Of a stretch of 64,000 nt of DNA, positions 11,057 through 35,465 are shown piece after piece. Position numbers and translations under genes: made by a program. Under the pieces are notes generated by a model. That model searched no databases and had not been told where the DNA came from. It saw only the letters and a list, made by a program, of their open reading frames with translations. Every line of letters starts with the position of its first letter. The stretch's first letter is position 1. Source of the stretch: Roseovarius gaetbuli (GTDB taxonomy: Bacteria; Pseudomonadota; Alphaproteobacteria; Rhodobacterales; Rhodobacteraceae); contig NZ_FWFJ01000014.1 in the NCBI RefSeq assembly GCF_900172365.1, forward strand, positions 1 through 64,000. Direction: 5' to 3'.

Positions 11057-11154
11057 AAATCCTCAGTCGGCCGCGCGCGATTCCGACTGTGGCAAGGCGC
11101 GCCCGCTGCGCCTATACTACTTCGAGTGGGGGCTTTGCGGGACATCGGAACGAT

Positions 11155-15280: not shown

Positions 15281-15379
15281 CTGCTGTTTCGCTTTTGAAA
15301 GGTTTGCTAAATAGGGGCTTAGCACAGGACGCGCAGGCGCATAAAGTTTGCGCAAGAAAGAATTGGAAACCCTCTGTTG

Positions 15380-16222
15380 ATGGATCACGCCAAACCCGCG
15401 CTGAGCGTCATCATCCCCGCCCATAACGAGGCCGGGTTGATCGGGCCCTGCCTTGATGCGCTTTTGGCCTCGGATTGGGCCGGGGGCGGGGTCGAGGTGA
15501 TCGTCGTCGCCAATGGCTGCACCGACGCGACCGTGCCCGAGGCCGAAACCCGGCGCGCGCCCACAGAGGCGCGGGGCTGGCACTTGCAGGTGCTTGATCT
15601 TGCTCAGGGCAGCAAACCCGGCGCCCTCAACGCCGGCGAGCGGGCGGCGACGGGTCGGGTGCTTGCCTATCTTGATGCCGACGTAGAGGTGACGCCGCCC
15701 CTGTTGGCCCAGATCGCACAGGTTCTGAGCGGCACGGACCCGGCCTATGCCAGCGGGCAGGTGATCATTCCGCCGCCGCAAACCGCCTTTAGCCGCACCT
15801 ATGCGCGGTTTTACCGACAGGTGCCGTTCTTTCACCATGGCGTTCCGGGATGCGGGTTTTTTGCCATGAACCGCAGCGCGCGGGCGCGGTGGGACGATTG
15901 GCCCGGTATCATTTCGGATGATACATTTGCGCGGTTGAATTTTGCCCCTCAAGAACGCACCGCGGTCAAAGCCGGGTATCGCTGGCCCCTCGTCGAGGGG
16001 TTTGGCGCGCTTGTCAAAGTGCGGCGCAGACAGGATCGCGGCGTCGCCGAACTTGCCGAGGCCTATCCCGCGCTTTTGGCCAATGACGATAGCCGCCCCT
16101 CGGGGCGTGACTGGATCATCGGCGCGGCGCGCCGCGCGCCGCTGGCGTTTCTGGCCTATGTCGCCGTCGCGCTTGCCGTGCGCATGGGCAAAGGCAGCGG
16201 CGAATGGACACGCGGGCGCTAA
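15380..16222 (+). CDS. GT2 family glycosyltransferase
   Basis: 280 residues, GT-A fold. Visible motifs are LSVIIPAHNEAGLIGPCLDA at the N-terminus, VIVVANGCTDAT, GSKPGALNAGE, and the metal-binding DxD as AYLDADVEV. The acceptor-side motif is atypical (IISDDTFARLNF), like the group that includes transferases acting in exopolysaccharide assembly. The C-terminus has one hydrophobic stretch. ATG 15380 is preceded in frame by a TTG at 15377. First gene of the plus-strand run that continues with the flippase and the PKS block. Confidence 0.87.
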   Translation: MDHAKPALSVIIPAHNEAGLIGPCLDALLASDWAGGGVEVIVVANGCTDATVPEAETRRAPTEARGWHLQVLDLAQGSKPGALNAGERAATGRVLAYLDADVEVTPPLLAQIAQVLSGTDPAYASGQVIIPPPQTAFSRTYARFYRQVPFFHHGVPGCGFFAMNRSARARWDDWPGIISDDTFARLNFAPQERTAVKAGYRWPLVEGFGALVKVRRRQDRGVAELAEAYPALLANDDSRPSGRDWIIGAARRAPLAFLAYVAVALAVRMGKGSGEWTRGR

Positions 16223-16254
16223 TGCCCTGCGATTTCAATGGATTCGCCGCAGAA

Positions 16255-16274
16255 CTGCCGTAATGCTACGGCAG
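16255..16274. other. Perfect 8-bp inverted repeat upstream of flippase
   Basis: CTGCCGTA and TACGGCAG flank a 4-base loop, about 50 bases upstream of the flippase start. No T-run follows, so it is more likely an operator or mRNA hairpin than a terminator. Confidence 0.45.
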
Positions 16275-16324
16275 ATCGGTGCGGGGTCGCCATCAAGGTC
16301 AAGACGGGGTTTAGAGTGCGCGTT

Positions 16325-17683
16325 ATGACGCAGGTTTTCTCAGGAGACGGGCTTTTGGCTCGGGCGATGCGCTCTTCGGCGCTGACCGTGGCAAGCTTTG
16401 GCAGCTCGCAGGTGCTCCGGCTTGCCTCGAACCTGATCCTCGCGCGGCTGTTGTTTCCCGAGGCCTTCGGCATCATGGCGATTGTCAGCGTGATCATCCA
16501 AGGCCTGATGCAGTTTTCTGATGTCGGCGTCAGCCCGGCCATCATGCAGAGCAAACGCGGCGATGATCCGGATTTCCTAAACACCGCCTGGACCATTCAG
16601 ATGATGCGCGGGATCGGCCTCTGGCTGGCGGCCTGTGCCCTGGCCTGGCCGGTGGCGCAGATCTACGACGCGCCCCTCCTGCTTCAGCTTTTGCCAGTCG
16701 CGGGGCTGTCCCTGCTGATCACCGGGTTCAACCCGACGCGGCTTGACAGCGCCAAGCGGCATTTGCGCTTTGGCCGGGTGACGGCGATAGATTTCGCCGT
16801 GCAGATCGCGGGCATTCTGGCCGCCGTTGGGCTTGCCTGGTGGCTTCAATCGGTCTGGGCGCTGGTGATTTCAGGGCTAATCAGCGCGCTTGTGGGGCTG
16901 GTGCTCTACTGGGTGTTTCTGCCCGGTCCGGGCAACCGCGTGCGGTGGGAAAAGCCCGCCGCGCAAGAGCTTGTCAATTTCGGAAAATGGATTTTCCTGA
17001 GTACGATCTGCGGCTTTCTGTTCAACCAGGCGGATAAGCTTATCCTTGGCAAATACCTTAGTTTCTCGGTCTTTGGCGTCTATAACATCGGGTTTTTCCT
17101 GGCCTCTTTCCCGATGCTTCTGGGCAATATGCTGACCTGGCGGCTGCTGATCCCGATCTACCGCGAATTGCCACCCGGCGAGAGCCCCGAGAACTTTGCC
17201 AAGCTCAGACGGATGCGCTTTGCCGTCACGCTTGCGCTTTTGGCGCTTGTGGCGATCTTTGCGCTTTTGGGGGTCTGGCTTATCGGGGTGATGTATGATG
17301 ATCGCTATGAAATGGCCGACGCGGTGGTGGTCATGATGGCAGTCATGCAAATCCCGCAGATCGTTGTAATGACCTATGATCAGGCCTCGCTTGCCGCCGG
17401 GGATTCGCGCCGCTTTTTCATTCTGACGCTGGCCAAGGCCGTGTTGATGATCACCGCGCTTATCCTTGGCCTTGAATGGGGCGGCTTGATGGGGGCGCTG
17501 ATAAGTTACGGCGTGGCCATGCTTTTTGCCTATCCGGTTGTGGTCTGGCTGGCGCGCCGGATGCGCGCCTGGGATCCGTTGCATGACGCGTCGATGGCGC
17601 TTGTCGGGCTTGGGATCGGGGGGCTGGCGGTTTGGGTCAATCTTGACGCGGTTGCCAATCTGGCGCGTGCGTCGGGGTGGTAA
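16325..17683 (+). CDS. Wzx-type polysaccharide flippase (PST family)
   Basis: 452 residues with about 12 predicted membrane segments and the start pattern of PST/MOP exporters (SSALTVASFGSSQVLRLASN, then LILARLLFPEAFGIMAIVS and ITGFNPTRLDSAKRHLRFGR). Members flip undecaprenyl-linked sugar units across the inner membrane. ATG 16325 is chosen because the open frame further upstream overlaps the inverted repeat and lacks family similarity. It lies 100 bases after the GT2 gene and 105 bases before the PKS gene on the same strand. Whether it exports only sugar or also a polyketide-decorated unit cannot be told from sequence. Confidence 0.88.
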   Translation: MTQVFSGDGLLARAMRSSALTVASFGSSQVLRLASNLILARLLFPEAFGIMAIVSVIIQGLMQFSDVGVSPAIMQSKRGDDPDFLNTAWTIQMMRGIGLWLAACALAWPVAQIYDAPLLLQLLPVAGLSLLITGFNPTRLDSAKRHLRFGRVTAIDFAVQIAGILAAVGLAWWLQSVWALVISGLISALVGLVLYWVFLPGPGNRVRWEKPAAQELVNFGKWIFLSTICGFLFNQADKLILGKYLSFSVFGVYNIGFFLASFPMLLGNMLTWRLLIPIYRELPPGESPENFAKLRRMRFAVTLALLALVAIFALLGVWLIGVMYDDRYEMADAVVVMMAVMQIPQIVVMTYDQASLAAGDSRRFFILTLAKAVLMITALILGLEWGGLMGALISYGVAMLFAYPVVVWLARRMRAWDPLHDASMALVGLGIGGLAVWVNLDAVANLARASGW

Positions 17684-17711
17684 GGCGCAAGGCGGGGGAC
17701 AAAAACTATGG

Positions 17712-17756
17712 TATTGCCAAGGAGTTGCCCCAAATTCTTCGCATTGTTTGGCAATA
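17712..17756 (+). promoter_or_regulatory. Inverted repeat before the PKS gene
   Basis: TATTGCCAA (17712-17720) and TTGGCAATA (17748-17756) form a perfect 9-bp inverted repeat with a 27-base spacer in the 105-base gap before the PKS start. The gap is A+T rich compared with its surroundings. It could be an operator with two half sites or the base of an mRNA stem in the leader. No clear -35/-10 pair was recognised. Confidence 0.45.
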
Positions 17757-17788
17757 TCAAAGCACCTATATTTTAAGCAGTGGATTTG

Positions 17789-20700
17789 ATGAAAGATGAC
17801 ATGATCCCCCAAGCGGCCGACGACAATGACATTGCGATTGTCGGCATGGCGGCGCATCTTCCGGGTGCGCAGACGGTGGCACAGTATTGGGAAAATCTGC
17901 GCAGCGGCATAAGCTCGATCCGCAAGCTTTCGGAAGACGAGCTTTTGGCAAGCGGCGAAAGCCAGCACATGATCCGCCAGAAAAACTATGTCCCGTTCGG
18001 CGCACCGCTTGACGGGTTCGAGATGTTCGATGGCGAGTTTTTCGGCTTTGGCCCCAAGGAAAGCGCCATTCTCGACCCCCAGCACCGCCATTTTCTTGAA
18101 ACCGCCTGGGAGGCGCTTGAAGATGCCGGGCACCCGCCGGAAAATTTCGGCGGCACTGTCGGGGTTTTTGCGGGCTGCGGCATGGGCAGCTATTTCTATT
18201 TCAACCTGTGTTCCAACCCTGATCTGGTCGACAATGTCGGCATGTTCCTGTTGCGCCATACCGGCAATGACAAGGATTTCCTGACCACGCGGCTTAGCCA
18301 TATTCTTGATCTCAAGGGGCCGAGCCTGTCGATCCAGACCGCCTGTTCGACCTCTCTTGTGGCTGTGCATTACGCGGCGCAATCGCTTTTGAATGGCGAA
18401 TGCGACATGGCGCTTGCCGGTGGCGTGACCATCGAGCTGCCGCAAAAACGCGGCTATCTTTACAAGGACGGCGAGATTCTGTCGCCCGACGGGCAATGCC
18501 ACGCCTTTGATCACCGCGCCCAAGGCACGGTCTTTGGTTCGGGCTCCGGCGTTGTCGTGCTGCGCCGATTGGCCGATGCACTGGCCGATGGCGATCACAT
18601 CTGGGGCGTGATCAAGGGCACGGCGGTCAATAACGACGGTGCCGCCAAGGCCGGTTACCTTGCCCCCTCGGTCGACGGTCAGGCGATTGCCGTGGCCGAG
18701 GCACAGGCGATTGCCGGCATCAGCGCCGAAACCGTGGATTATGTGGAATGCCATGGCACCGGCACCTATCTTGGCGACCCGATCGAGGTTGCCGCCCTCA
18801 CACAGGCGTTCCGCGAGACCACCCAAGCGGTGGATTTCTGCCGCATCGGCAGTGTGAAGACCAACATCGGCCATCTCGATACCGCCGCCGGTGTGGCCAG
18901 CCTGATCAAGGCGACGCTGGCGCTCTATCACAAGGAAATGCCGCCTTCTCTGGGCTATGAGGCGGCCAATCCCGCGATTGGCTTTGACGGCAGCCCCTTT
19001 GCCGTCAATGACCGACTTACGCCTTGGCCAAAGCGCGACCATCCGCGCCGCGCCGGGGTCAATTCGCTTGGGGTTGGCGGCACCAATGCCCATGCGGTTT
19101 TGCAAGAACCGCCCGAAGCTGCGCCCTCTGAGCCCGGCGATTGGCCGTTTCAGCTTTTCACCCTCTCGGCGCGCAACAAATCCGCACTTGAAGACGGTGC
19201 CGCGCGGCTGGCAAGCCATCTGCGCGCGCATCCCGAGCAACCGCTGGCCGATGTCGCCTGGACCCTGAAAGAGGGTCGGCGCGCCTTTGATCGCCGCCGC
19301 GTCGTAGTCGCTGATAGCCACGAGGCCGCCGCCGCGCTTTTGGAAAAGGGCGATCCTCGGCGGGTGTTTACCCACGAGGTCCTGGGCCATGACCCGCAGG
19401 TCGTGTTCATGTTCCCCGGCGGCGGTGCGCAATATGCGGGCATGGCGCGCGACCTTTATGAAACAGAGCCGGTCTTTGCCGAATGGATGGATCGCGGGCT
19501 TGATCTGCTTCAGCCCAGGCTTGATTACGACATCCGCGCGATCTGGTTGCCGGACGGCGATGGACTGCCCGAGGCGCAAGAGCGGCTCAAGCGCCCTTCG
19601 GTGCAATTGCCGCTGATCATGATCACCGAATATGCGCTTGCCCAACTCTGGCAGAGCTGGGGGGTGACCCCCGCCGCCCTTATCGGGCATTCGATGGGCG
19701 AAAACACCGCCGCCTGTCTCGCCGGGGTGATGAGCTTCGAGGATTGCATCGGTCTTGTGCATCTGCGCGGGCAGCTTTTTGACGAGGTCGCGCCGGGCGG
19801 CATGCTGAGCGTGCCATTGGCCGCCGAGGCGCTGCGCCCCTGGCTTGGCGAAGGCCTTGACCTTGCGGCGGTGAATGCGCCCGAACTCTCGGTTGCCTCT
19901 GGGCCGCAGGCGGCCCTTGATGATTTGGCCGCGCGCCTTGCCGCCGAGGGGATCGAGGCACAGCGCATTCCAATCGACATCGCCGCCCATAGCCGGATGC
20001 TCGTGCCGATCCTTGACCGGTTCCGCGCCTATCTGGCCTCTATCACTCTCAATCCGCCACAAATCCCGCTGATCTCGAACCGCAGCGGCGATTACATGAC
20101 GCCGGAGCAGGCCACCGATCCGGATTACTGGGTTGGGCATCTGCGACATACGGTAGAGTATGCAAAGGGCCTTGGCCGCCTTGCCGAGGGCGAGGCACGG
20201 GTGTTTCTTGAGGTCGGGCCCGGCAAGGCTTTGTCGTCCCTGGCTCAGGCGCATGACGCGATCACCGCCAATCAGGTGATCGGCACCCTACGCCATCCCG
20301 ATGACGTGGTGCCCGATGACGAATACTTCATGGCGATGCTTGGCCGGATGTGGGCCGTGGGCGTCACCATCGACTGGCATCAGATCTGGGGCGAGGCGCG
20401 CCGCTTGCGCGTGCCGCTTCCGACTTATGCCTTTCAACACAAACCCTATTTCATCGCCCCCGGCGCGGCGCGGCACGAGGCAGCAACCGATTTTCCGCTG
20501 CGGCGCGATGATCTGGCGGACTGGGGGTATCGACCGCATTGGCGGCCTCGGCTGGCCGAGGTCGACCTCAGCGACGGCGCCGACATGGACGCGATCCCGC
20601 CCGAGAGCTGGCTTATCTTTGAGGATGACGCCGGGCTTGCCAAAAAGGTTGGCGCGCGCCTTGAGAGCGCCAATCATACGGTGACGTATGTTAGCCCCGG

Positions 20701-23700
20701 CGATGCCTTCGCCACACTTGCACCGGGGCGTTATGCGCTCTCGCCGGAACGCGGGCGCGAGGGCTATGATCAGCTGATCCGCGCGTTGGTCTCGGAGGGG
20801 CGTGCGCCCACCCGGATCGCGCATTTCTGGCAGGTTACGGCGGATGAACGCCACCGCCCCGGATCAAGCTTTTTCCACCGGCTTCAGGAACAGGGATTCT
20901 ATAGCCTGCTGTTTCTGGCACAGGCCATGGCCGACGAGGGCCTGCCGACGCCGATCCATATCACCGCGATCACCTCTGGCGCGGCGCAGGTCAAGGGCGA
21001 GCCGCTTGCGCACCCGGCCAAGGCCACCGCGATGGGCCCGCTGCGGGTGATCCCGCGCGAGATGCCCGGCGTGACCTGCGCCAGCCTTGATATCCCCATG
21101 CCCGACACCCGGCGCGGGATGCCCGACGCGCTTGTCACGCAGGTGCTGGAGGATCTGCTGCAAGAGCCCGGCAACCGCGTGGCGGCCCTGCGCAGTGCGC
21201 GGCGCTATGAACAAGACTATCGCGCCCAGCCGATCCCCGAGGGCGAGACGCCGATTGCCGATGGCGATACGGTTCTGATCACCGGCGGCTTTGGTGGCAT
21301 CGGCCGGACGCTGGCCGAAGACCTGATCCGCAGGAATGGCGCCAATATCGTGCTGATGTCGCGCCGGGCGCTGCCCGCGCGCGAAGATTGGCCACGCTAT
21401 CTTGCGACCCGTGGCGCGGGCGATCCGCTGGCGCGCCGGATTGCCGCGATCGAGCGATTGGAGGGGCTTGGCGGGCGCGTGATGGTGATCACGGCGGATG
21501 TCTGCAACATCGAGGATATGCGCGCCGCACGGGCGCAGATCGAGGCCGGGTTTGGCCGCGTCAACGGCGTCATCCACGCCGCCGGCGTGATCGCCGACGC
21601 GCCACTTCTGAGCAAGGGGCCGGACAGTATCGAGGATGTGTTCACCCCGAAAATTCACGGCACGCAGGTGCTTGAACAGGTGTTCCCCGATGGAACGCTT
21701 GACTGGCTCGTGCTGTTTTCCTCGACCTCGACGGTGACCGCCCCGGCGGGGCAGGTCGATTACGTGGCGGCGAACGAATACCTCAACGCCTATGCCAAAT
21801 CGCGCAGCGCCGACAAGACCCGCGTGCTTGCGCTCAACTGGGGGATCTGGGCCAAGGTCGGCATGGCCGCCGAGGCGGTTGCGCGCCAAAAGGGCGATGT
21901 CATTCCCGCCCCGCGTGTGCCCGTCACGGCGCCGCTGATCGACACGGCAAGCCATGACGCCGAGGGCAACCGGCTTTTCCATGCCAGCTATTGCGCGGCC
22001 GACACTTGGGTATTTGACGAGCATCGCACCAAGGCCGGTCAGGCGCTTTTGCCCGGCACCGGGTATCTGGAGCTTTTGGCCGAAGCCCTGCGCGCGCAGG
22101 GCGAAGAGGGCGCGTTTGAAATTCGCGACCTGTGGTTCCTGCGCCCGTTTGACATGCCGGATCAAGGCGCCCGCGACATGCGCCTGCGTTTGACGCGCAG
22201 CGCTGCGGGCTATGACGCAGAGGTGCAAAGCGCGTCGACCCTGGCCGGGCGTCAGGGGTGGCAAAGCAATGCCCAAGGCGGCGTGACCCTCGTGCCGCGC
22301 GCCGCGCCTGCGCCGCTTGATCTTGCCACCATTCGCAAGCGCATGGAAAGCTGGCAAGAGGCGGGCGATGCGCCCCTAAGCGCCCCGCAAGAGGCACATC
22401 TTGCGTTCGGGTCCCGTTGGCGGGTGTTGCAAGCCATGGGCTTTGGCGACGGTGAGGGCCTTGCGTATCTGCGCCTGCCAGAGGTGGCGATGGACGATCT
22501 CGCACAGGGCTATCTTTTGCATCCGGCCCTGATGGATATCGCGACCGGTTGGGCGATGAAGCTGATCGAGGGCTATGCGCCGACGCATCTCTGGGTGCCG
22601 ATGTCTTATGGCGCGGTCCGGGTCTTTGCGCCGCTGGCGGGCGAGGTGTTCAGCCATGTGCGCAATGCCGACGACAACCGTGCCGGGGCCGCGACCGCAA
22701 GTTTTGACATCACGATCTGCGACAGGTCGGGCCGGGTGCTTGTCGACATCCGGAATTTCGCGATCCGCCGCCAAGAGGGCGGGCTTGCGCTTAGCGCGCC
22801 GACCGCGCGGGACCTGGAGTTTGACCCCGGACAAGGCGGCGAGGCCCAGAGCCTCTCGCCCGCAGAGGAACGGCTTCAGCACAACCTTGAACAGGGGATT
22901 TTGCCAAGCGAGGGGCCAGAGGCGTTTCGCCGCGCGCTTGCCAGCGGGCTGTCACAGGTGGTCGTGTCCTCGCTTGACCTTGACGCGCTTTGCGCACAGG
23001 CCGAAGATAGCGCCCGCGGCCCGGATGAGAGCGGGCAAAAGTTCGACCGCCCCGATCTTGAAAGCGATTTCGTTGCCCCCGAGGGCGAGATCGAAACCCG
23101 GCTGGCAGAGTTCTGGAGCAGCCTTTTGGGCCTTGAAACCGTCGGTGCCGAGGATAGCTTTTTTGATCTTGGCGGGCATTCCCTGATTGCCGTGCGGCTG
23201 TTCGGGATGATCCGCAAGGCGTGGCAAGTGGATTTCCCGATTTCGGTGCTGTTCGAGGCGCCCACGATCCGCGCGTGCGCCGCGCTGATCGAGGCGCGCA
23301 TCGGGCCGCAAGGGGCCAGTACCACCACCGGTGCCGCCACCCAAAATCCAAGCACGCCAGAGCGCCGCTTCACCCATCTGGTGCCTATGCACCGGGGCGA
23401 AGGCGGGCCGAAGCGACCGTTTTTCCTTGTGGCGGGGATGTTCGGCAACGTCCTCAACCTGCGCCACCTTGCGCATCTTCTCGGCGATGACCGGCCATTT
23501 TATGGGCTTCAGGCGCGCGGGCTTTATGGCGGCGAGGCGCCGCATGACGATCTTGTCGAGGCAGCGCGCGACTATATCACCGAAATGCGCCAGATTCAGC
23601 CGCATGGCCCCTATCTTTTGGGTGGCTTTTCCGGCGGCGGCATCACCGCCTATGAGATGGCGCAACAATTGCGCGCAGCGGGCGAAGAGGTGGGTGCACT

Positions 23701-24223
23701 GGTCATGCTTGACACCCCCCTGCCGCAACGCCGTGCGCTATCGCGCAAGGATCGCCTGCTTATCCAGTGGCAGGAATTGCGCGCGCGCGGCCCGCTTTAT
23801 CCGCTGCACTGGGCCAGCAACCGGATCAAATGGGAACTGGCCAAACGCCGCCCGCAAGAGGCCGCGACAAACACCGAGCATCAGTTTCACGACAGCGAGA
23901 TCGAGGCCGCGTTCTATCGCGCGATTGCGCGCTATGACTTGCGCCCCTGGGATGGCCCGCTCTCCCTGTTCCGCCCGCCGCTTGTGGGCAAATGGCAGGT
24001 CTCGAACGGGCTCTGGGTGAATTCAGAGCGCGCTTATGTGCTGCCCGACAATGACTGGACCCGCCATGCGCCACAGGTGCAGGTGACAGAGGTGCCGGGT
24101 GATCACGATTCAATGGTGCTAGAGCCCAATGTGCGGGTTCTGGCCGCCCGCATCCGGCGCGCGATCGAGACCGCCGAAGCGGATATTCCCAACCCGCCCC
24201 TTGCCCGGAGGGCCGCAGAATGA
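17789..24223 (+). CDS. Type I polyketide synthase KS-AT-KR-DH-ACP-TE
   Basis: 2144 residues. KS, about 10-435: active-site Cys186 in TACSTS, His322 in HGTGT, His362 in NIGH. AT, about 535-840: Ser635 in GHSMGE, with the specificity region reading DIAAHS, more malonyl- than methylmalonyl-like. After a linker, KR about 1155-1345: NADPH loop GGFGGIG at 1166, Tyr1325 in VDYVAANEY. DH-like region about 1400-1650: His1412 in HRTKAGQALLPG, one residue out of register with HxxxGxxxxP. ACP: Ser1798 in LGGHSL. TE: Ser1948 in GGFSGGG and His2106. No ER or methyltransferase is seen, so one module could give a reduced, possibly dehydrated unit released by the TE. Upstream GTG 17780 is an alternative start. 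The stop overlaps the next glycosyltransferase (ATGA). The product is unknown. Confidence 0.92.
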   Translation: MKDDMIPQAADDNDIAIVGMAAHLPGAQTVAQYWENLRSGISSIRKLSEDELLASGESQHMIRQKNYVPFGAPLDGFEMFDGEFFGFGPKESAILDPQHRHFLETAWEALEDAGHPPENFGGTVGVFAGCGMGSYFYFNLCSNPDLVDNVGMFLLRHTGNDKDFLTTRLSHILDLKGPSLSIQTACSTSLVAVHYAAQSLLNGECDMALAGGVTIELPQKRGYLYKDGEILSPDGQCHAFDHRAQGTVFGSGSGVVVLRRLADALADGDHIWGVIKGTAVNNDGAAKAGYLAPSVDGQAIAVAEAQAIAGISAETVDYVECHGTGTYLGDPIEVAALTQAFRETTQAVDFCRIGSVKTNIGHLDTAAGVASLIKATLALYHKEMPPSLGYEAANPAIGFDGSPFAVNDRLTPWPKRDHPRRAGVNSLGVGGTNAHAVLQEPPEAAPSEPGDWPFQLFTLSARNKSALEDGAARLASHLRAHPEQPLADVAWTLKEGRRAFDRRRVVVADSHEAAAALLEKGDPRRVFTHEVLGHDPQVVFMFPGGGAQYAGMARDLYETEPVFAEWMDRGLDLLQPRLDYDIRAIWLPDGDGLPEAQERLKRPSVQLPLIMITEYALAQLWQSWGVTPAALIGHSMGENTAACLAGVMSFEDCIGLVHLRGQLFDEVAPGGMLSVPLAAEALRPWLGEGLDLAAVNAPELSVASGPQAALDDLAARLAAEGIEAQRIPIDIAAHSRMLVPILDRFRAYLASITLNPPQIPLISNRSGDYMTPEQATDPDYWVGHLRHTVEYAKGLGRLAEGEARVFLEVGPGKALSSLAQAHDAITANQVIGTLRHPDDVVPDDEYFMAMLGRMWAVGVTIDWHQIWGEARRLRVPLPTYAFQHKPYFIAPGAARHEAATDFPLRRDDLADWGYRPHWRPRLAEVDLSDGADMDAIPPESWLIFEDDAGLAKKVGARLESANHTVTYVSPGDAFATLAPGRYALSPERGREGYDQLIRALVSEGRAPTRIAHFWQVTADERHRPGSSFFHRLQEQGFYSLLFLAQAMADEGLPTPIHITAITSGAAQVKGEPLAHPAKATAMGPLRVIPREMPGVTCASLDIPMPDTRRGMPDALVTQVLEDLLQEPGNRVAALRSARRYEQDYRAQPIPEGETPIADGDTVLITGGFGGIGRTLAEDLIRRNGANIVLMSRRALPAREDWPRYLATRGAGDPLARRIAAIERLEGLGGRVMVITADVCNIEDMRAARAQIEAGFGRVNGVIHAAGVIADAPLLSKGPDSIEDVFTPKIHGTQVLEQVFPDGTLDWLVLFSSTSTVTAPAGQVDYVAANEYLNAYAKSRSADKTRVLALNWGIWAKVGMAAEAVARQKGDVIPAPRVPVTAPLIDTASHDAEGNRLFHASYCAADTWVFDEHRTKAGQALLPGTGYLELLAEALRAQGEEGAFEIRDLWFLRPFDMPDQGARDMRLRLTRSAAGYDAEVQSASTLAGRQGWQSNAQGGVTLVPRAAPAPLDLATIRKRMESWQEAGDAPLSAPQEAHLAFGSRWRVLQAMGFGDGEGLAYLRLPEVAMDDLAQGYLLHPALMDIATGWAMKLIEGYAPTHLWVPMSYGAVRVFAPLAGEVFSHVRNADDNRAGAATASFDITICDRSGRVLVDIRNFAIRRQEGGLALSAPTARDLEFDPGQGGEAQSLSPAEERLQHNLEQGILPSEGPEAFRRALASGLSQVVVSSLDLDALCAQAEDSARGPDESGQKFDRPDLESDFVAPEGEIETRLAEFWSSLLGLETVGAEDSFFDLGGHSLIAVRLFGMIRKAWQVDFPISVLFEAPTIRACAALIEARIGPQGASTTTGAATQNPSTPERRFTHLVPMHRGEGGPKRPFFLVAGMFGNVLNLRHLAHLLGDDRPFYGLQARGLYGGEAPHDDLVEAARDYITEMRQIQPHGPYLLGGFSGGGITAYEMAQQLRAAGEEVGALVMLDTPLPQRRALSRKDRLLIQWQELRARGPLYPLHWASNRIKWELAKRRPQEAATNTEHQFHDSEIEAAFYRAIARYDLRPWDGPLSLFRPPLVGKWQVSNGLWVNSERAYVLPDNDWTRHAPQVQVTEVPGDHDSMVLEPNVRVLAARIRRAIETAEADIPNPPLARRAAE

Positions 24224-25224
24224 CGGACACCCCGCGCGTTCTCTGCATCATCCTGAATTGGCGCACGCCAGAGATGAGCCTGAAATCCTGCGCCGCGGCA
24301 CAGATCGCGATGCAGGATATCGCGGGCGAGATTGTGCTGGTCGACAACGACTCCGGCGATGGGTCGTACGAAAAACTACAAGCGGGCATCAAGGGCCAAA
24401 GCCGGGTGCGCGTGGTGCAATCTGGGCGCAATGGCGGCTTTGGCGCGGGCAATAATGCCGGTATGCGGGCGGGCTTGGCCGACGGCACGCCGCCCGATTA
24501 TGTCTATATCCTGAATTCCGATGCTTTCCCGGCGCGCGACGCGATCACCCGCCTTCTGGCGCATCTTGAGGCCACGCCCCAGGCGGGCCTTGTCGGCAGC
24601 TATATCCATGGCTCTGACGGGGCGGCGCATGTCACCTGTTTCCGCTTTCCCTCGATTGCCGGTGAGTTCGAAGGCGCGGCGCGCATGGGTCCGGTCAGCA
24701 GGATGTTGAAACGCCATATCGTGCCCCTTGCGGTGCCCGAGGCCGACCGCCCGGTTGATTGGCTGGCCGGCGCAAGCCTGATGATCCGGCAAGGCGTGCT
24801 TGATCAGATCGGCGGCTTTGACGAGCGGTTTTTCCTCTATTTCGAGGAAACCGACCTTTGCCTGCGGGCCGCGCGAGCAGGCTGGCACACCCATTTCGTA
24901 CGCCAGAGCGAGGTCGAGCATATCGGCTCGGTCAGCACCGGCATGAAAACATGGGCACGGGTGCCCGATTACTGGTTCGCCTCGCGGCGGCATTATTTCG
25001 TGAAAAACCACGGGCGCGCCTATGCCGTCGCGGCAACGCTGGCGCATTTGGCCGGCGGGGTGCTGGGACAGGTCTGGCGCATCGTCCGGCGCAAACCGGC
25101 CGCTGGTCCGCCGCATTTCCTGCGAAGTTTACTGGTAAGTGATAGCCGTGCGGCGCTGCGCGATATTGCGGGTCGCGGCCCCAAAAGCGCCAGCAAAGGC
25201 GCGCGTGCCGTGGCTGAGAAATGA
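24220..25224 (+). CDS. GT2 glycosyltransferase (rhamnosyltransferase-like)
   Basis: 334 residues, GT-A fold of the WbbL/rhamnosyltransferase-like group. Motifs in order: VLCIILNWRTPEMSLKS, VLVDNDSGDGS, RNGGFGAGNNAGMRAG, ILNSDAFP (DxD equivalent), DWLAGASLMIRQGVLDQIGG and FDERFFLYFEETDLCLRA. A hydrophobic stretch follows near residue 275. Its start overlaps the PKS stop by four bases, and the formyltransferase-adenylation gene begins 10 bases after its end. This tight placement suggests a sugar is added to the polyketide/glycine product, or that the block is simply embedded in a glycan operon. The sugar donor is unknown. Confidence 0.88.
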   Translation: MTDTPRVLCIILNWRTPEMSLKSCAAAQIAMQDIAGEIVLVDNDSGDGSYEKLQAGIKGQSRVRVVQSGRNGGFGAGNNAGMRAGLADGTPPDYVYILNSDAFPARDAITRLLAHLEATPQAGLVGSYIHGSDGAAHVTCFRFPSIAGEFEGAARMGPVSRMLKRHIVPLAVPEADRPVDWLAGASLMIRQGVLDQIGGFDERFFLYFEETDLCLRAARAGWHTHFVRQSEVEHIGSVSTGMKTWARVPDYWFASRRHYFVKNHGRAYAVAATLAHLAGGVLGQVWRIVRRKPAAGPPHFLRSLLVSDSRAALRDIAGRGPKSASKGARAVAEK

Positions 25225-25234
25225 GGATAAGACG

Positions 25235-28200
25235 ATGTTGACCGCCCTTCTGATCGGGAATGAATCGCTGGCCCTCAACTGTGGCGAGGCCTGGCTTGGG
25301 CGCGGGCATGAAATCGCGGCCGTGGTCACGCGCAACCCCGATGTGAGGGCTTGGGCGACGGCCAAGGGCCTGCCCCTGATTGCCCCCGGCGCGGGCCTCT
25401 CCGAGGCGCTCAGCGGGGTGTCGTTTGACTGGCTGTTGTCGATTGCCAATCTGTCGGTTCTTCCCGAGAGCGTACTGGCAAAGGCAACCAAGGGCGCGGT
25501 GAATTTTCACGACGGGCCATTGCCGCGCTACGCGGGGCTCAACGCGCCGGTCTGGGCCTTGATCGAGGGCGAGGCGCGCCACGGCATCACCTGGCATCTG
25601 ATAGAAGGCGGAGTGGATGAGGGCCGCATCATCGAGCAGCGCCTGTTTGATATCGCGGCCGATGACACCGCCTTTACCCTCAACGCCAAATGCTATGGCG
25701 CGGCGCTGGATAGCTTTCCCACCGTGATGGATCAGCTTGAGCGCGGCCTGCCCGGTGCGGTGACCCAAGACCTTGACGCGCGCTCCTATTTCGCCCGCGC
25801 CGACCGCCCCGAGGCCGCCGCCTGGCTGGATTTCACCAAGCCCGCAAGCGATCTTGCCCGGCTGGTGCGCGCGCTGGATCATGGCGGGTATCTTAACCCG
25901 CTGTGCATGGCGCGCATCAAACTTGGCGATCAGGTGGTTCTGGTTGGCAAGGCCGAAATCCTAAGCGGTAAAACCGGCCCGGCGGGAACGGTTATAGAAG
26001 TCACCAAAGACCAACTGAGTGTCGCAACAGGCGATGGCGCAATCCGGCTAGGCGCGCTTTGCGCAGGCGACGGAACGGCGATTGATCCGGTCAAACTGGC
26101 CACGCCGGGCATGATGCTTGCACAAAGCGGCGCGGCGGAGGGTCTCACCCGGATCATGACCGATCTGGCGCCGAATGACGGCTATTGGCGCGCCGCCTTG
26201 CGGGCCATGCAGCCGATTACCCTGCCGGTTGCGCCGGGGGATGGCGCGGGCGAAGAGCGGCATGCGCTTGACCTTACAGGCGACACGCCGCTTGGCATTG
26301 CCGCCCTCTGGGCCAGCCGCCTTGCGGGAGAAGCAGGCGCAACGCTGGCCTATCGCGGCAAGGCGGTGTCACAGATCGAACACCCCGGTCATACCTGTCC
26401 TTGGGTGCCTCTGACCCTGCCCGAGGGCGAGACGCTGGCGGATTTGCAGACGGCAATGCAGGCCGCCCTTGACCGCGCCGAGACCAAGGGCGGCTTTGCG
26501 CTTGATATCTTTGCGCGCGACCCCGGCCTTGACGCGGGTCACCGGCCCACGCTTGGCCTTCGGGTTGAGGGCAGCGGGCTTATCCCCGGCACGGTGGTGA
26601 CGCTCGATCTGGGATCGACGCCGTCGCTTGTTTATGATCCCGCGCGCCTCTCGCCTGCGATGGCCGATTTGCTGGCCAAACGGCTTGAGGATCTCGGTCG
26701 CGGCGCGCCGGACAGCACGATCAGCGATTTGCCCCTTCTGCCCGAGGCCGAGCATCGTCTTGTCACTCAAAGCTGGAACCGCACCGCGCAGACCTATGAT
26801 CCGCTGCCGCTTCACAGGATGATCGAGGCCCGCGCCGCGCGCGCGCCCGATACGACGGCCCTGGTGTTTGAGGATCAGGCCCTCAGCCACGCAGAGCTTG
26901 AGACGCGCGCCAATCGCGCCGCGCATGTTCTACGCGAGATGGGGGTTGGCCCCGGTGTTCTGGTCGGGCTTTGCCTGCCGCGCTCGGCCGATATGATCGT
27001 GGCGGCGCTTGCGATCTGGAAGGCAGGCGGGGCCTATGTGCCGATGGACCCGGCCTATCCGACCGAGCGGCTTGCGCTTTACCTGACCGATAGTGGCGCG
27101 CCGGTGGTGATTAGCCACGCCGCATTGGCCGCGACCCTTCCCAAGACCGACGCAGAGGTGCTCTGTCTTGATAGTGATCCACGGCTTGCAAGCGCCCCCG
27201 CCACCGCGCCAGAGGGCGGTGCCGGACCGGATGATCTGGCCTATGTGATCTATACCTCCGGCTCGACCGGGCGGCCCAAGGGCGTGATGGTCGAGCATCG
27301 CAACGTGGCAAATTTCTTTGCCGGGATGGACGGGCGCATTGCCCATGATCCGCCGGGGGTCTGGCTGGCGGTGACCAGCCTCAATTTCGACATTTCGGTG
27401 CTTGAGCTGTTTTATGCCCTCGCGCGTGGTTTCAAGCTTGTGCTGAGCGGCGATGAGACCCGCGCGCTTGTCTCGTCGGGTCATCTTGCCACCTCGGATC
27501 GCGGGATGGAGTTCAGCCTTTATTACTGGGGCAATGACGATGGCACCGGGCGTGACAAATACAAATCCCTGCTGGAAGGCGCCCAATTTGCCGACACCCA
27601 CGGCTTTTGCGCGGTCTGGACGCCCGAGCGGCATTTTCACGCCTTTGGCGGCCCCTATCCCAATCCTTCGGTGACCGGGGCAGCGGTGGCGGCGGTGACG
27701 CAAAACATCGGCGTGCGCGCCGGAAGCTGTGTCGCGCCGCTGCACCACCCGGCCCGCATCGCCGAGGAATGGGCGGTGATCGACAACCTCACCAACGGGC
27801 GCGCGGGCCTTGCCATTGCCAGCGGCTGGCAGCCGGATGATTTCGTGCTGCGCCCCGAAAACACCCCGCCCGATAACAAGCCGGCGATGTTCGACGCGAT
27901 CCGCGATCTGCGCAAGCTGTGGAAGGGCGAAGCGGTTGAATACCCGCGCGCCGATGGTAGCCTGCACAGCGTCGTGACCCAACCGCGCCCGGTGTCAAAA
28001 GATGTCCCGATCTGGGTGACAACGGCGGGCAATCCGGCCACCTGGAAAGAGGCCGGGGCGCATGGCGCCAATGTTCTGACCCATCTTCTCGGCCAATCGG
28101 TGAGCGAAGTGCATCAGAAAATCGGCCTCTATCATGCGGCGCTGCGCGAGGCAGGGCATGATCCGGCTGATTTCACCGTCACGCTGATGCTACATACCTA

Positions 28201-29818
28201 TGTGGCGCAATCGCGCGACGAGGCCGAGCGCGTGGCGCGCGAACCGATGAAGGATTACCTGCGCTCTGCGGCCGGGTTGATCAAGCAATATGCCTGGGCG
28301 TTTCCTGCCTTCAAGAAGCCCGAAGGCGTCAGCAATCCGTTCGAGCTTGATCTTGGATCGCTTTCTGAGGACGAGTTGGAAGGCATCCTCGATTTCGCCT
28401 TTCTGCGGTATTTCGAGGATTCCGGCCTTTTCGGCACGGTCGAGGATTGTGTCGCGCGGGTTGAAGAGCTTAAGCGGATCGGCGTGGATGAGGTTGCCTG
28501 TTTGATTGATTACGGCATTCCGGTGCGCCAGGTTCTGGACGGCTTGCGCCCGCTGGCGCAGGTGCTCGAACGCTGCAATCGCGTCGGCAGCATCCCCGAG
28601 GATGACTTTTCCATCGCGGCGCAGATTTTGCGCCATGGCGTCACGCATTTGCAATGCACGCCGTCGATGGCGCGGATGATCGCGATGAACGACGAGGCGC
28701 GCCATGCGCTTGGGCGCATCAAGCATCTGATGCTCGGTGGAGAGCCTTTGCCGGGGGCGCTTGTGGGCGAGATGGCAACGCTGAGCGGCGCCACAATCGA
28801 AAACATGTACGGGCCGACCGAAACCACGATCTGGTCCACCACTGCCCCGGCCACGCCGGGCACAGGCGTGGCGCCGATCGGCACGCCGATTGCCAATACC
28901 CAGACCTATGTTCTTGACGACACGATGCGCCCCGTGCCGGTTGGCGCGCCCGGCGAATTGTGGATTGGCGGCGACGGTGTAACGCGTGGCTATCTTAACC
29001 GCGATGATCTGACCGCAGATCGGTTTCGCGCCGATCCGTTCCGCCCCGGCGGGCGGATTTACGGCACGGGCGATCTTGTGCGATGGCGCGCCGATGGGCA
29101 GATCGAGTTTATCGGGCGGGCCGACACGCAAGTCAAGCTGCGCGGTTATCGGATCGAGCTTGGCGAGATCGAAAGCGCGCTTGAGGCCTGCGCCGGGGTC
29201 GAGCAGGCGGTCGTTCTGGCGCGTGAGGATAGCCCCGGCGACACCCGCCTTGTCGCCTATCTGCGTGGCTCTGCCGAGATTGAGGCTCTCAAGACAGCAC
29301 TGGCAAGCACCCTGCCCGCGCATATGATGCCTGCGCATTTCCTGCGCCTTGAGGTGTTCCCGCTGACGCCCAACCGCAAGGTGGATCGCAAGGCGCTTCC
29401 GGCGCCGTCCCAGGCCGATCCCGCGCCGCAAACCGCAGTCAGCTCTGCCGCACAGGGCAGCACGCTGGAGCGCGATATCGCTGCGATCTGGTCGCGCATT
29501 CTTGGCGTGGCCCAGATCGGGCCGCAGGACAGTTTCTTTGATCTTGGCGGGCACTCGCTTTTGGCGGTGCAGGCGCATCGCGAAATCCGACAGGAGCTGG
29601 CGGCGAGCGCGTTGAGCATCACCGACATTTTCCGCTTTCCCAAGCTGGCGGCCCTGGCCGCGCGGGTGGCAGAGGCGCGCGGCGATACCCCCGCCATGAG
29701 CCCCGCCCCCGCGCAGCAGGCCAATGCCACCGCGCCCGCAGAGCTTGGCGCGCGTGCCACCTCGCGAGCCGATGCGATGTCGCGGCGGCGCGCGATGCGT
29801 GCGGCGCGCCAAGGCTAG
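25235..29818 (+). CDS. Formyltransferase-adenylation protein with inserted luciferase-like monooxygenase and carrier domain
   Basis: 1527 residues. (1) Formyltransferase-like domain, about 1-300, with the family triad as Asn90, His92 (NFHDGPLPRYAG) and Asp128 (GGVDEG). (2) About 340-520, a stretch resembling only the C-terminal part of a condensation domain, without HHxxxDG. (3) Adenylation domain from about 528, A3 as YTSGSTGRPKG at 673; after FDISVLEL it is interrupted at about 757-1115 by a luciferase-like monooxygenase of the MupA/Atu3671 type. (4) The adenylation domain resumes with NMYGPTETT at 1190 and ends at PNRKVDRKAL. (5) Carrier domain with Ser1441 in LGGHSL. Pocket residues read D-I-L-Q-M-G-M-I-W-K, the glycine-type code. 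No thioesterase follows. GAGG lies 8 bases before ATG 25235. The order of reactions is unknown. Confidence 0.88.
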   Translation: MLTALLIGNESLALNCGEAWLGRGHEIAAVVTRNPDVRAWATAKGLPLIAPGAGLSEALSGVSFDWLLSIANLSVLPESVLAKATKGAVNFHDGPLPRYAGLNAPVWALIEGEARHGITWHLIEGGVDEGRIIEQRLFDIAADDTAFTLNAKCYGAALDSFPTVMDQLERGLPGAVTQDLDARSYFARADRPEAAAWLDFTKPASDLARLVRALDHGGYLNPLCMARIKLGDQVVLVGKAEILSGKTGPAGTVIEVTKDQLSVATGDGAIRLGALCAGDGTAIDPVKLATPGMMLAQSGAAEGLTRIMTDLAPNDGYWRAALRAMQPITLPVAPGDGAGEERHALDLTGDTPLGIAALWASRLAGEAGATLAYRGKAVSQIEHPGHTCPWVPLTLPEGETLADLQTAMQAALDRAETKGGFALDIFARDPGLDAGHRPTLGLRVEGSGLIPGTVVTLDLGSTPSLVYDPARLSPAMADLLAKRLEDLGRGAPDSTISDLPLLPEAEHRLVTQSWNRTAQTYDPLPLHRMIEARAARAPDTTALVFEDQALSHAELETRANRAAHVLREMGVGPGVLVGLCLPRSADMIVAALAIWKAGGAYVPMDPAYPTERLALYLTDSGAPVVISHAALAATLPKTDAEVLCLDSDPRLASAPATAPEGGAGPDDLAYVIYTSGSTGRPKGVMVEHRNVANFFAGMDGRIAHDPPGVWLAVTSLNFDISVLELFYALARGFKLVLSGDETRALVSSGHLATSDRGMEFSLYYWGNDDGTGRDKYKSLLEGAQFADTHGFCAVWTPERHFHAFGGPYPNPSVTGAAVAAVTQNIGVRAGSCVAPLHHPARIAEEWAVIDNLTNGRAGLAIASGWQPDDFVLRPENTPPDNKPAMFDAIRDLRKLWKGEAVEYPRADGSLHSVVTQPRPVSKDVPIWVTTAGNPATWKEAGAHGANVLTHLLGQSVSEVHQKIGLYHAALREAGHDPADFTVTLMLHTYVAQSRDEAERVAREPMKDYLRSAAGLIKQYAWAFPAFKKPEGVSNPFELDLGSLSEDELEGILDFAFLRYFEDSGLFGTVEDCVARVEELKRIGVDEVACLIDYGIPVRQVLDGLRPLAQVLERCNRVGSIPEDDFSIAAQILRHGVTHLQCTPSMARMIAMNDEARHALGRIKHLMLGGEPLPGALVGEMATLSGATIENMYGPTETTIWSTTAPATPGTGVAPIGTPIANTQTYVLDDTMRPVPVGAPGELWIGGDGVTRGYLNRDDLTADRFRADPFRPGGRIYGTGDLVRWRADGQIEFIGRADTQVKLRGYRIELGEIESALEACAGVEQAVVLAREDSPGDTRLVAYLRGSAEIEALKTALASTLPAHMMPAHFLRLEVFPLTPNRKVDRKALPAPSQADPAPQTAVSSAAQGSTLERDIAAIWSRILGVAQIGPQDSFFDLGGHSLLAVQAHREIRQELAASALSITDIFRFPKLAALAARVAEARGDTPAMSPAPAQQANATAPAELGARATSRADAMSRRRAMRAARQG

Positions 29819-29822
29819 GGCG

Positions 29823-30470
29823 ATGCTGATCTCCGCGCTGCGCGCGGTCCTGCCGCCGGATGTCGCGCTTGGCAGTGCTGATCCCACCGCGCCCGAGACC
29901 GGGCTTTGGCCCGGCGAAAGCGCCGCAATGGCCCGCGCAATCCCTGCCCGGCGACGCGAGTTTGCCGCCGGGCGGCGCGCCGCACGCGATGCGATGCAGG
30001 CGCTTGATTTACCCCCCACAGCAATTCTGCCCGGCCCGGATCGTGCGCCGATCTGGCTCGACGGGATCACTGGAAGCATCAGCCATGGCGGCGGCACCTG
30101 TCTTGCCCTGGTGGCGCGACGGGGGGCTATCACCGGCCTTGGGATTGATCTTGAACCGGCAGAGCCATTGCCGCCGGACATGATTGAGACTATTTGTACC
30201 GGGCCGGAACACGACGCAATCAAGGACCATGATCTTATGGGCCGAGTGATCTTTTGCGCCAAGGAGGCCGCCTACAAGGCGCAATATCCGCTTAGCCGCA
30301 AAATCCTTGAATTTCACGATCTGCAAACCACCATCGACCTTGCCGGGGGGCAGTTCGAGGCGCGTTTCACGCGGACTTGCCCGCCCTTTCAGGCGGGCGC
30401 GCAGATGGTCGGCCGCATCGTCATCGCCCGAAACCTTGTTGCCGCTGTTGTGGTGCTGTCCGCGCCGTGA
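29823..30470 (+). CDS. 4'-Phosphopantetheinyl transferase, Sfp/EntD type
   Basis: 216 residues. It would transfer phosphopantetheine from CoA to the carrier-domain serines of the two preceding megasynthases. Motifs: SISHGGG, the magnesium-binding GIDLEPAEPL, and FCAKEAAYKAQYPLS, all characteristic of the EntD-like branch. It begins 4 bases after the stop of the formyltransferase-adenylation gene, so it is almost certainly co-expressed with it, and it marks the end of the biosynthetic block. Its presence suggests the carrier domains are meant to be functional. Confidence 0.92.
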   Translation: MLISALRAVLPPDVALGSADPTAPETGLWPGESAAMARAIPARRREFAAGRRAARDAMQALDLPPTAILPGPDRAPIWLDGITGSISHGGGTCLALVARRGAITGLGIDLEPAEPLPPDMIETICTGPEHDAIKDHDLMGRVIFCAKEAAYKAQYPLSRKILEFHDLQTTIDLAGGQFEARFTRTCPPFQAGAQMVGRIVIARNLVAAVVVLSAP

Positions 30471-30691
30471 AACCGCCCGAGAACAGAGTGTTTCCAATCA
30501 CGTGCAAATAAACTGTGGCGAGATTGCGGCCAAATCGCTAAATTAAGGCGGAGATTAGACAAAAATCTGTCAGGGCCGTTTGGGGGCATTCGGTCGGCAG
30601 GGTGTTTGAGGTGGGCATTGCCCCCGGCACTTGGCCGATGATTACGCACCTCGGGCGGTTTTTCGTTTCAAACGACGCTGAAAGGTGGATG

Positions 30692-31977
30692 ATGGGTTCG
30701 ATCCAATCCTTGCCCGGTTTATATCGCATGCTGCGCCGCAGGCTGTGGCTTATTGCATTCGTGACGCTTGCAGGCAGCGTTGGCGCGGTGTTTTTCGCGC
30801 TCAATCAGCCACGCGCCTATGAGGCGACAGCGGTCATCCAGATCGAAACCCCGCAAGTGGGCCGCGACATCACCGGGCGCGTCGTGCCGACGGATGCGAT
30901 GCAACGCCTGCAACTGATCGAGCAGCGCCTGATGGCGCGCGACAACCTCATCAAGGTGATCGACAAGCATGCGCTTTTTGCCGACGCCCCCAATATGCCG
31001 CTGCCGCAGAAGATCTTTAACCTGCGGATCTCGACCCGGATCGAACAGATTTCCGTCGGGCTTCAGGGCGTGGCGACCACCCCTTCGGGGCTAAGCGTCA
31101 CGGTGCGCCTTGGGGACGCGCAAAAGGCCGCCGATATCGCGAATGAATTTGTCGATACCGTGCTGACTCAGAACCGCGAACGGCGTCTGGCGCTGGTGCG
31201 CGAAACCCTTGGATTTTACAGTGCCGAAGAAGAGCGCGTCAGCGCTCAGATCGCTGCGGTCGAGGCCGACATCGCAGAGTTCAAGCGCGCCAATGCCGAT
31301 GCCCTGCCCGAGAATGCGGGCGCGTTGCGCACGCAGCTTAACATGCTGAATGAAACCACCCTTGAGATCGAGCGCCAGATCATCGCGCTTCAAATCGACA
31401 GTTCGCGGCAGCGGCAGGAGGTCTTCGCGCGGCAGGTCGAGCAGCTTACCGATCAGCGCAACCTTGTCGGGGCGCGCATTGCCCGGATCGAAGACGCGAT
31501 TGCCGCCGCCCCGCGCGTCGAGCGCGAGCTGGGCGCCTTGCTGCGCAGCCAGACCCAGTTGCAGGAGCAGCTCAACACCATCACCCGCAACCGGGTTGAG
31601 GCCGAAATGTCGAGCGTTCTGGAAAACAGCCAGCAGCAAGAGCGGTTCGAGATTTTGGAAACGGCGATTCCGCCTGCGATTCCGGTCTCGACCAGCCGCA
31701 AAAAGCTTGCGCTCATGGGCGGTGTTGCCAGCCTTCTTGCCGGGCTCGGCCTTGCGTTCCTGCTTGAGATCATGAACCCGGCGCTGCGCACCGCCGCGCA
31801 GCTTGAGCAAGAGCTAGACATCACCCCGGTGGTGACAATCCCGGTCGTGCGTCTGCGTCACGAGCGGCGCAAGCAGGCGGCAAAGGCGATTGGTGCCTTT
31901 ATCCTTGCCTTGATCAGCCTGCCCTTTATCTTGCGTTTCATCCACGAGCGGGTCATCCCGCTTCGGATCTTGGGCAA

Positions 31978-31984
<7 letters not shown>
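30692..31984 (+). CDS. Wzz-type polysaccharide chain-length determinant
   Basis: 430 residues of the Wzz/PCP family, an inner-membrane protein that controls polymer length. An N-terminal membrane helix (LWLIAFVTLAGSVGAVFFAL) is followed by a periplasmic domain with long coiled-coil prone stretches (about 150-310), then the conserved Pro-rich segment PPAIPVSTSRKK and the second helix GGVASLLAGLGLAFLLEIM. An additional hydrophobic segment near the C-terminus (FILALISLPFILRF) is unusual. AAAGGTGG precedes two adjacent ATGs; 30692 has the better spacing. No kinase domain is fused; the kinase is the convergent neighbour, overlapping by 7 bases. Confidence 0.87.
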
Positions 31985-33165
<1,181 letters not shown>

Positions 33166-33346
33166 GGCGCGATCCTCCGGCCACGCCCCAAGCGAAACGG
33201 CGCGCCAAGGCACGTGATCTCCGCCAACCTGAAAAGGCCCTGCTCAGCCATTTGAAATTCCCTTACCTGCCCGATCAGGTAGACAGGATAAATCCGGCGA
33301 CAATGCGACCGAAAAAGAGAGATTGTATGCCCCTTTCCGGGGAACC

Positions 33347-35452: not shown

Positions 35453-35465
35453 GAAGCCCCCTCTT

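Follow-up and report, generated by a model that had tools for sequence, protein, structure and literature searches.

The window analyzed here, 64,000 nucleotides of Roseovarius gaetbuli (family Rhodobacteraceae; NCBI RefSeq assembly GCF_900172365.1, contig NZ_FWFJ01000014.1, positions 1 to 64,000 of the forward strand), harbors a block of four consecutive genes encoding a polyketide synthase (PKS), a glycosyltransferase (GT) of family GT2, a nonribosomal peptide synthetase (NRPS) and a phosphopantetheinyl transferase (PPTase). We propose, with a probability of roughly 0.58, that the block encodes a two-protein assembly line dedicated to supplying a small acyl building block to the surrounding Wzx/Wzy-type surface glycan; the product and its attachment to the glycan we infer from the genes. 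The block comprises the following features:

17684–17788, plus strand: leader between the Wzx-type flippase gene and the PKS gene, 105 bases (read from the sequence)
17789–24223, plus strand: type I PKS with ketosynthase, acyltransferase, ketoreductase, dehydratase, acyl carrier protein and thioesterase domains (KS-AT-(psiKR)KR-DH-ACP-TE), 2144 amino acids from the ATG at 17789 (Pfam; start and stop from the sequence; residues conserved in 175 orthologs)
24220–25224, plus strand: block GT2 glycosyltransferase, rhamnosyltransferase-like (Pfam Glycos_transf_2; NCBIfam matches below cut-offs)
25235–29818, plus strand: NRPS initiation module, formyltransferase (FT), linker, adenylation (A) domain (glycine) interrupted by a TIGR04020 luciferase-like monooxygenase (MOx), peptidyl carrier protein (PCP) and basic C-terminal tail
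29823–30470, plus strand: Sfp/EntD-type 4'-phosphopantetheinyl transferase (Pfam 4PPT_N and ACPS)

All four genes lie on the plus strand between the Wzx gene and a Wzz-like gene. The PKS stop and the GT2 start overlap as ATGA at 24220, the GT2 stop (25224) and the NRPS ATG (25235) are 10 bases apart, the NRPS stop (29818) and the PPTase ATG (29823) 4 bases, and 105 bases separate the Wzx stop (17683) from the PKS ATG (17789). Pfam assignments and the junctions as read agree in every respect with an earlier note on this DNA concerning positions, strand, order, overlaps and leader length of the four genes, and Pfam also recovered the Wzx protein claimed directly before (16238–17683) and the Wzz-type protein claimed after the block (30602–31984). 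Within the 105-base leader no consensus promoter or terminator was found, the scan giving no more sites than shuffled sequences, and repeats of at least 30 bases between 14000 and 32000 were limited to one weak inverted pair.

With residues numbered from the GTG at 17780, which lies three codons ahead of the ATG, Pfam places the PKS domains at 16–393 (KS), 542–838 (AT), 944–1105 (Beta-ketacyl_N, probably a psi-KR), 1164–1358 (KR), 1385–1664 (DH), 1774–1837 (PP-binding) and from 1882 onwards (Thioesterase). In most PKS modules DH stands before KR; in the window PKS it follows KR. An enoylreductase (ER) domain was not found in the PKS by Pfam. The NRPS carries Formyl_trans_N and Formyl_trans_C, an AMP-binding domain split by Bac_luciferase (799–1118), AMP-binding_C and PP-binding. 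Its MOx is a TIGR04020 member (474.7 bits versus a cut-off of 244.45), inserted between FDIS and YGPTE in the translation, which we take to be motifs A4 and A5, respectively.

The block is surrounded by the following genes:

14033–15952, minus strand: GT4 open reading frame (ORF) upstream of Wzx
15377–16222, plus strand: GT2 ORF upstream of Wzx
16238–17683, plus strand: Wzx-type flippase (Polysacc_synt_3; Pfam)
30602–31984, plus strand: Wzz-domain polysaccharide co-polymerase, XrtA-system-like (Pfam, NCBIfam)
31978–33213, minus strand: BY-kinase-like (XrtA-associated tyrosine autokinase-like) partner (matches below NCBIfam cut-offs)
33347–43093, minus strand: sugar tailoring and glycosyltransferase genes (Gfo/Idh-epimerase fusion, GT2, GT4, epimerase, Gfo/Idh, SDR, GMC oxidoreductase)
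43090–45132, minus strand: AT3 acyltransferase fused to an SGNH domain, candidate sugar acyltransferase
46459–47853, minus strand: Wzy/WaaL-like integral membrane polymerase or ligase (family Wzy_C matches and fold)
49293–50087, minus strand: initiating sugar-phosphate transferase (Bac_transf; Pfam)

With Wzx, Wzy-like and Wzz-like proteins, an initiating transferase and several GTs found together, the stretch from 14 to 50 kb reads as a Wzx/Wzy-type glycan locus. The Wzy-like label was given because Wzy_C is found in 15 of 25 members of the protein's family (the window copy itself has no Pfam match) and because the fold matches WaaL: the model (mean predicted local distance difference test, pLDDT, 83.7) has the ligase WaaL (7tpg) as its best solved match, with E 9.8e-5 and a template modelling (TM) score of 0.48. 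Relatives of this protein adjoin the PKS in another lineage.

In order to follow the block through other genomes, two samples were analyzed, with labels transferred by tblastn (E 1e-8) from the window and annotated plasmid proteins. The first consisted of the best 80 of at least 540 relative-encoding stretches (among at least 593 matched). In these 80 named loci the NRPS and the GT2 were always present, the PKS was found in 79 (L075 is cut off), the PPTase in 70 and glycan genes in 78. Glycan genes were not labelled in L073, a contig of 10 kb with nothing but the block, and in L093, where UbiA, GtrA, FAD-oxidase and AT3 labels occur nearby. The second sample was drawn by genus from the family, where TIGR04020 scored above its cut-off in 105 of 295 genomes (294 genera). 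It comprised 100 loci from 98 of these 105 genomes, the excluded seven being the window's own genome and six matches near contig ends. Full orthologs were found in 97 loci, and L165, L250 and L261 were divergent. Among the 97 orthologs the PKS was observed in 92 (the other five lie at contig ends), the GT2 in 88 and the PPTase in 80; in one genome a DUF4357 ORF stands between PKS and GT2 (L197:6853–7773). The first label set gave a glycan label in 82 of the 97, counting the Wzy-like family added eight loci (90 of 97), and a wider search within ~25 kb raised the number to 94, leaving one uninformative locus (L262, a 6.9-kb contig) and two exceptions. The loci added last are L182, L183 and L253, with Wzx or Bac_transf within ~25 kb, and L215, where one gene shares 69% identity with a GT2-family protein but has no Pfam match of its own. 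For comparison, none of ten random 20-kb stretches from three of the genomes carried a glycan label, and Bac_transf occurs in 1 to 6 copies per genome (14 genomes).

The two exceptions, L180 and L229, carry no glycan label in their 20-kb stretches, and PF02397 and PF13440, the only families searched more widely, are absent from their contigs. Both are without the block GT2, and a glutamine-synthetase-like gene adjoins the PKS in L229 and lies one gene away in L180; they may represent a variant with another product. The earlier note had named the occurrence of the block without flanking glycan genes in related genomes as evidence against its reading; this is seen in 2 of the 97 orthologs, and glycan genes accompany the block in 94. 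These two loci speak for a rival explanation, namely that the block makes a free secreted metabolite (a signal, metallophore or antibiotic) which is merely co-regulated or co-located with a biofilm glycan. A TE can release a free acid, and an orphan hybrid cluster is listed in the relevant sections of several genome papers (PMC4337385, PMC5014874, PMC8273931). Nevertheless, we consider this explanation rather unlikely. The scanned ORFs of the window between 14 and 50 kb include no drug exporter, TonB receptor or regulator, the nearest regulator being a response regulator at 52415, and the glycan link survived many changes of neighborhood. Furthermore, the recurrent unlabelled ORF families c0, c1, c2, c3, c5, c6, c9, c13, c14, c16, c21, c22 and c24 were rejected as antisense shadows of labelled genes, and after their removal the unlabelled families recur in only 3 to 6 of 90 loci. 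The missing exporter, receptor and regulator at 14–50 kb and the lack of a widely recurring unlabelled flank family were the grounds for giving a free siderophore or antibiotic less weight as the leading explanation.

The NRPS-PKS pair and glycan genes were also found together outside the family: in Shinella, Aminobacter and Rhizobium (Hyphomicrobiales), in two other families of the window's class (G549, G440), in three of four loci of Hydrogenophaga (Burkholderiales) and in Deinococcus actinosclerus. On a FastTree tree of 185 NRPS rows, the type of PKS neighbor needs 22 changes and the window's Wzx type 9 (7 of these required by well-supported branches); these neighbor labels are coarse, the class 'other' is mixed and L047 forms a long branch. 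Distances between NRPS and PKS are closely correlated (r 0.91, n = 174 loci), and none of 200 shuffles was as high. The idea that the position in a glycan locus is accidental, or was inherited once and has no functional meaning, draws on the shared ancestry of the family copies and on near relatives keeping the same neighbors, but it is hardly compatible with differing glycan neighborhoods on many branches, in other orders and in another phylum, or with the ten control stretches free of glycan labels, and we regard it as highly improbable. The glycan link is more than shared ancestry. The claim that block and glycan genes belong together is strongly backed by 94 of 97 family orthologs, 78 of the best 80 named loci and the loci from other orders and another phylum.

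The catalytic equipment was compared in sets of 175 PKS and 185 NRPS orthologs, which comprise the window, L039–L043, L046, L047, L145 and L147, plus those frames of L048–L127 and L165–L264 passing a length filter. The checked KS, AT, KR, DH and ACP residues are conserved in all 175 PKS, the TE Ser in 174 and the TE His in 172; of the 185 NRPS, all have the PCP Ser and 182–183 the FT Asn/His/Asp. We presume that the residues checked in KS, AT, KR, DH, ACP, TE, FT and PCP are those with the catalytic roles. The A-domain code reads DILQ[MLFY]GMIWK in 180 of 185 NRPS orthologs, the remaining five differing by one residue, and presumably corresponds to the glycine code DILQLGLIWK. The A domain is accordingly predicted to be specific for glycine, as the earlier note had expected, and its near-invariant signature bears this out. 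In the AT the motif A-A-H-S was observed in 174–175 of 175 PKS orthologs. Two classic AT motifs exist, and A-A-H-S is neither of them; judging from its sequence, the AT likely uses malonyl units.

A condensation domain was not found by Pfam in the 218-residue linker of the window NRPS, and only one of three orthologs tried gave Condensation, at E 0.24; the candidate was rejected. Nor was a TE found on the NRPS. Since no condensation domain is recognizable, we read the NRPS as a starter module. Its C-terminal tail is basic, with a mean charge of +4.7 over 30 residues and a positive value in 183 of 185 orthologs, and the PKS N-terminus is acidic, with a mean of −2.3 and a negative value in 151 of 171 (the KS start was found in 171 of the 175). 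Such opposite charges would fit a transfer of the NRPS product to the PKS. In Deinococcus (L047), where the formyltransferase is a separate gene upstream, and in a divergent Methylobacterium copy (L044) the PKS gene immediately follows the NRPS gene. The block GT2 has conserved motifs (82 sequences) and no solved relative by sequence at E 0.01; among solved structures, PuwE (6ket) comes closest to the MOx in sequence.

A possible second partner was detected in one large lineage, where a protein of ~310 residues without Pfam match follows the PPTase (63 matches, e.g. L106:17298–18230; 38 of 97 family loci); it also occurs near the exceptional locus L180. Its motifs (GHSLVG ... IH-ND-G) and its model (pLDDT 91.2) suggest an SGNH fold; the top-ranking solved structures match weakly (E 1e-4 to 1e-3, TM ~0.4) but are GDSL/SGNH enzymes, including rhamnogalacturonan acetylesterase, TesA and the O-acetyltransferase PatB. 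Because of an N-terminal hydrophobic helix, the protein is probably secreted or membrane-anchored, and it may install or remove an acyl group outside the cytoplasm. Searches for a relative gave nothing in the window's genome and in 10 of 11 other genomes; in the window the AT3-SGNH gene could stand in its place.

Based on these observations the following sequence of events is conceivable. The PPTase, judging from its family, would activate both carrier proteins. The NRPS would load glycine according to the observed signature and, with its intact FT active site, would N-formylate it from formyl-tetrahydrofolate, and the built-in flavin monooxygenase would, by analogy to its relatives, oxidize the alpha carbon. 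The basic NRPS tail probably docks on the acidic PKS N-terminus. The PKS would then add probably one malonyl-type unit, reduce and dehydrate. With FT and MOx acting on the starter glycine, the starter would be an N-formyl-alpha-hydroxyglycyl or glyoxylyl unit, extended once, and the TE would release or transfer a C4-type formamido-hydroxy or formamido-enoyl acid, or an oxidized form of it. The block GT2, and in some lineages the SGNH-fold protein or the AT3-SGNH acyltransferase, may build this acid into the repeat unit or attach it there; Wzx would flip the unit and the Wzy-like enzyme polymerize it. Alternatively, the small acid might prime the Wzx/Wzy glycan instead of being installed on it.

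A more far-reaching variant is doubtful. Here the alpha-hydroxy N-formylglycyl-S-PCP made by the MOx would give an N,O-hemiaminal or, with loss of formamide, a glyoxylyl unit, from which the PKS would form a 4-oxo-crotonyl (aldehyde-enoyl) or hemiaminal group on the exopolysaccharide; letting chains cross-link or bond to surfaces, it would be a reactive glue group in about one third of the family's genera.

A further explanation, which we hold to be unlikely, is that the product of the block is a lipid-like anchor, primer or carrier, serving either as the base for glycan synthesis or as the link that keeps the glycan on the cell. The block GT2 could add the first sugar to such a product, and the block stands beside Wzx and Wzz-like genes in many of the best 80 named loci. 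A single module with a TE and a formylglycine starter is, however, unlike a maker of fatty chains, no ER domain was found by Pfam, and the locus has its own Bac_transf initiating enzyme, Bac_transf initiation being the usual polyprenyl-phosphate primer route. PKS genes in capsule clusters (RkpA/WcbR) are a known kind according to the consulted parts of PMC3908369, and a comparable role might be supposed for them.

Several points weigh against the proposed supply of an acyl building block to the glycan. The PKS lies upstream of the NRPS gene in 91 of the 92 family loci having both, a gene order unlike the proposed order of action. Nine of the 97 family loci (four of them cut by contig ends) gave no GT2, and Hyphomicrobiales loci were seen without GT2 beside the block: a GT2 homolog of 39–40% identity lies elsewhere in the same locus in Shinella and G549, and the stretches of Aminobacter (L043) and Rhizobium BG6 (L046) yielded none. 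L180 and L229 hold the block with no glycan gene found nearby. Likewise, divergent NRPS-PKS pairs (40–44% identity) were found without glycan labels in L151, L153 and L165; others (L044, L149/L150) have sugar genes as neighbors. Labelling of the glycan genes relied on permissive BLAST transfer (E 1e-8), and the random control applies to the 20-kb measure only. TE domains usually hydrolyze or cyclize, so that a TE transfer to sugar is a guess. From the earlier suggestion of an acylated, amino-acid-containing glycan decoration, the association of block and glycan and the glycine code are corroborated; the product may be a decoration, but also a primer, an anchor or a co-located free metabolite.

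Some additional observations concern the surroundings and remote relatives of the block. The divergent family with FT-A-MOx-PCP and PKS (40–44% identity) is represented by L044, L045, L149, L151, L153 and L165, and divergent copies in G322 and G590 contain one in-frame stop each. In the window, GMC oxidoreductase and SDR genes lie together at 40746–43093, a pair that might conceivably carry out a two-step sugar oxidation-reduction; each of the two recurs in related glycan loci, 10 of the 80 named ones. The label of the Gfo/Idh/MocA dehydrogenase fused to a sugar epimerase (33347–35500) turned up again close to the block in 24 of the 80 named loci, and that of an RTX calcium-binding repeat protein of 1088 amino acids (10783–14049), upstream of the locus, in 36 of 80. 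The window's Wzz and kinase resemble XrtA-system proteins (NCBIfam), and on replicons of Ruegeria and Aliiroseovarius (L039, L040, L045) the block has exosortase XrtD or VPLPA-CTERM genes in its vicinity.

If the proposal is true, it points to a novel acyl substituent in marine biofilm polysaccharides and opens surface attachment in a major marine bacterial group to clean genetic manipulation. A roseobacter cluster counted as a secondary-metabolite pathway would then be a glycan-modification pathway, whose product should be sought in the polymer and not in the culture extract, and secondary-metabolite counts in the family may include surface-polymer genes.

Among known systems, the RkpA/WcbR PKS genes sit in capsule clusters of Rhizobium and Burkholderia (PMC3908369) and resemble the block in placing a type I PKS gene inside a polysaccharide locus. 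Compared by description only, they differ in that no NRPS partner, formyltransferase or glycine is mentioned in the parts of that source consulted. The earlier statement that exopolysaccharide loci usually lack such machinery does not fully stand in view of these precedents (rkpA, wcbR). In analogy to the FT-A modules that make formylglycyl-S-PCP in oxazolomycin and conglobatin biosynthesis, as outlined in passages of PMC4979870, and to LgrA, the window NRPS has an FT fused to an A-PCP starter with the FT catalytic residues intact. It shares with OzmO-type starters the N-terminal FT with Asn/His/Asp, the glycine A domain, the PCP and the absence of a recognizable upstream condensation domain. 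It differs in the MOx inside its A domain and in being followed by one PKS module with TE only. An oxazole-forming cyclodehydratase like OzmP or CongE was not found among the 36 window ORFs scanned with Pfam, the rest of the genome not being searched.

With MtaG/MelG the module has in common a luciferase-like MOx inserted between A4 and A5 of a glycine A domain. In myxothiazol and melithiazol biosynthesis such a MOx hydroxylates C-alpha and cleaves the chain, according to the relevant part of PMC11342130, and luciferase-like enzymes of this kind have been proposed as alpha-hydroxylases in several pathways (PMC8739492, in the section consulted). The MtaG/MelG module ends and cleaves a chain, but the window module, on whose NRPS neither a condensation domain nor a TE was found, seems to stand at the start, with formyl as its only N-acyl group.

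The closest likeness is to an orphan roseobacter PKS/NRPS cluster, in which the same four genes stand together. As the pertinent sections of PMC4337385 report, a cluster of NRPS, PKS, glycosyltransferase and PPTase with an uncharacterized product occurs in 28 of 57 roseobacter genomes; Leisingera sp. ANG-Vp of that study is our locus L110, with all four genes present. The cluster appears again in PMC5014874, which, like PMC4337385, cites Martens and colleagues. PKS Inhi_1972 and NRPS Inhi_1974, listed for Phaeobacter inhibens in the consulted part of PMC4062626, are probably the same cluster, and the hybrid cluster described on a 225-kb replicon of Paracoccus marcusii CP157 in the corresponding part of PMC8273931 is probably our match H12/H36. 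The word 'polysaccharide' is absent from the main text of PMC4337385 and PMC5014874, and 'exopolysaccharide' from PMC8273931; a glycan link of the block was not found in the sections consulted of open-licence papers. Of the earlier view that the block is unusual, the tie to the glycan remains without a counterpart found in print, and the block itself is already on record as the orphan cluster. The new claim is consequently one of function in glycan biology: the cluster, listed in the cited sections as a secondary-metabolite cluster with no product assigned, is here tied to glycan loci, extends beyond the roseobacters and probably makes part of a cell-surface polysaccharide.

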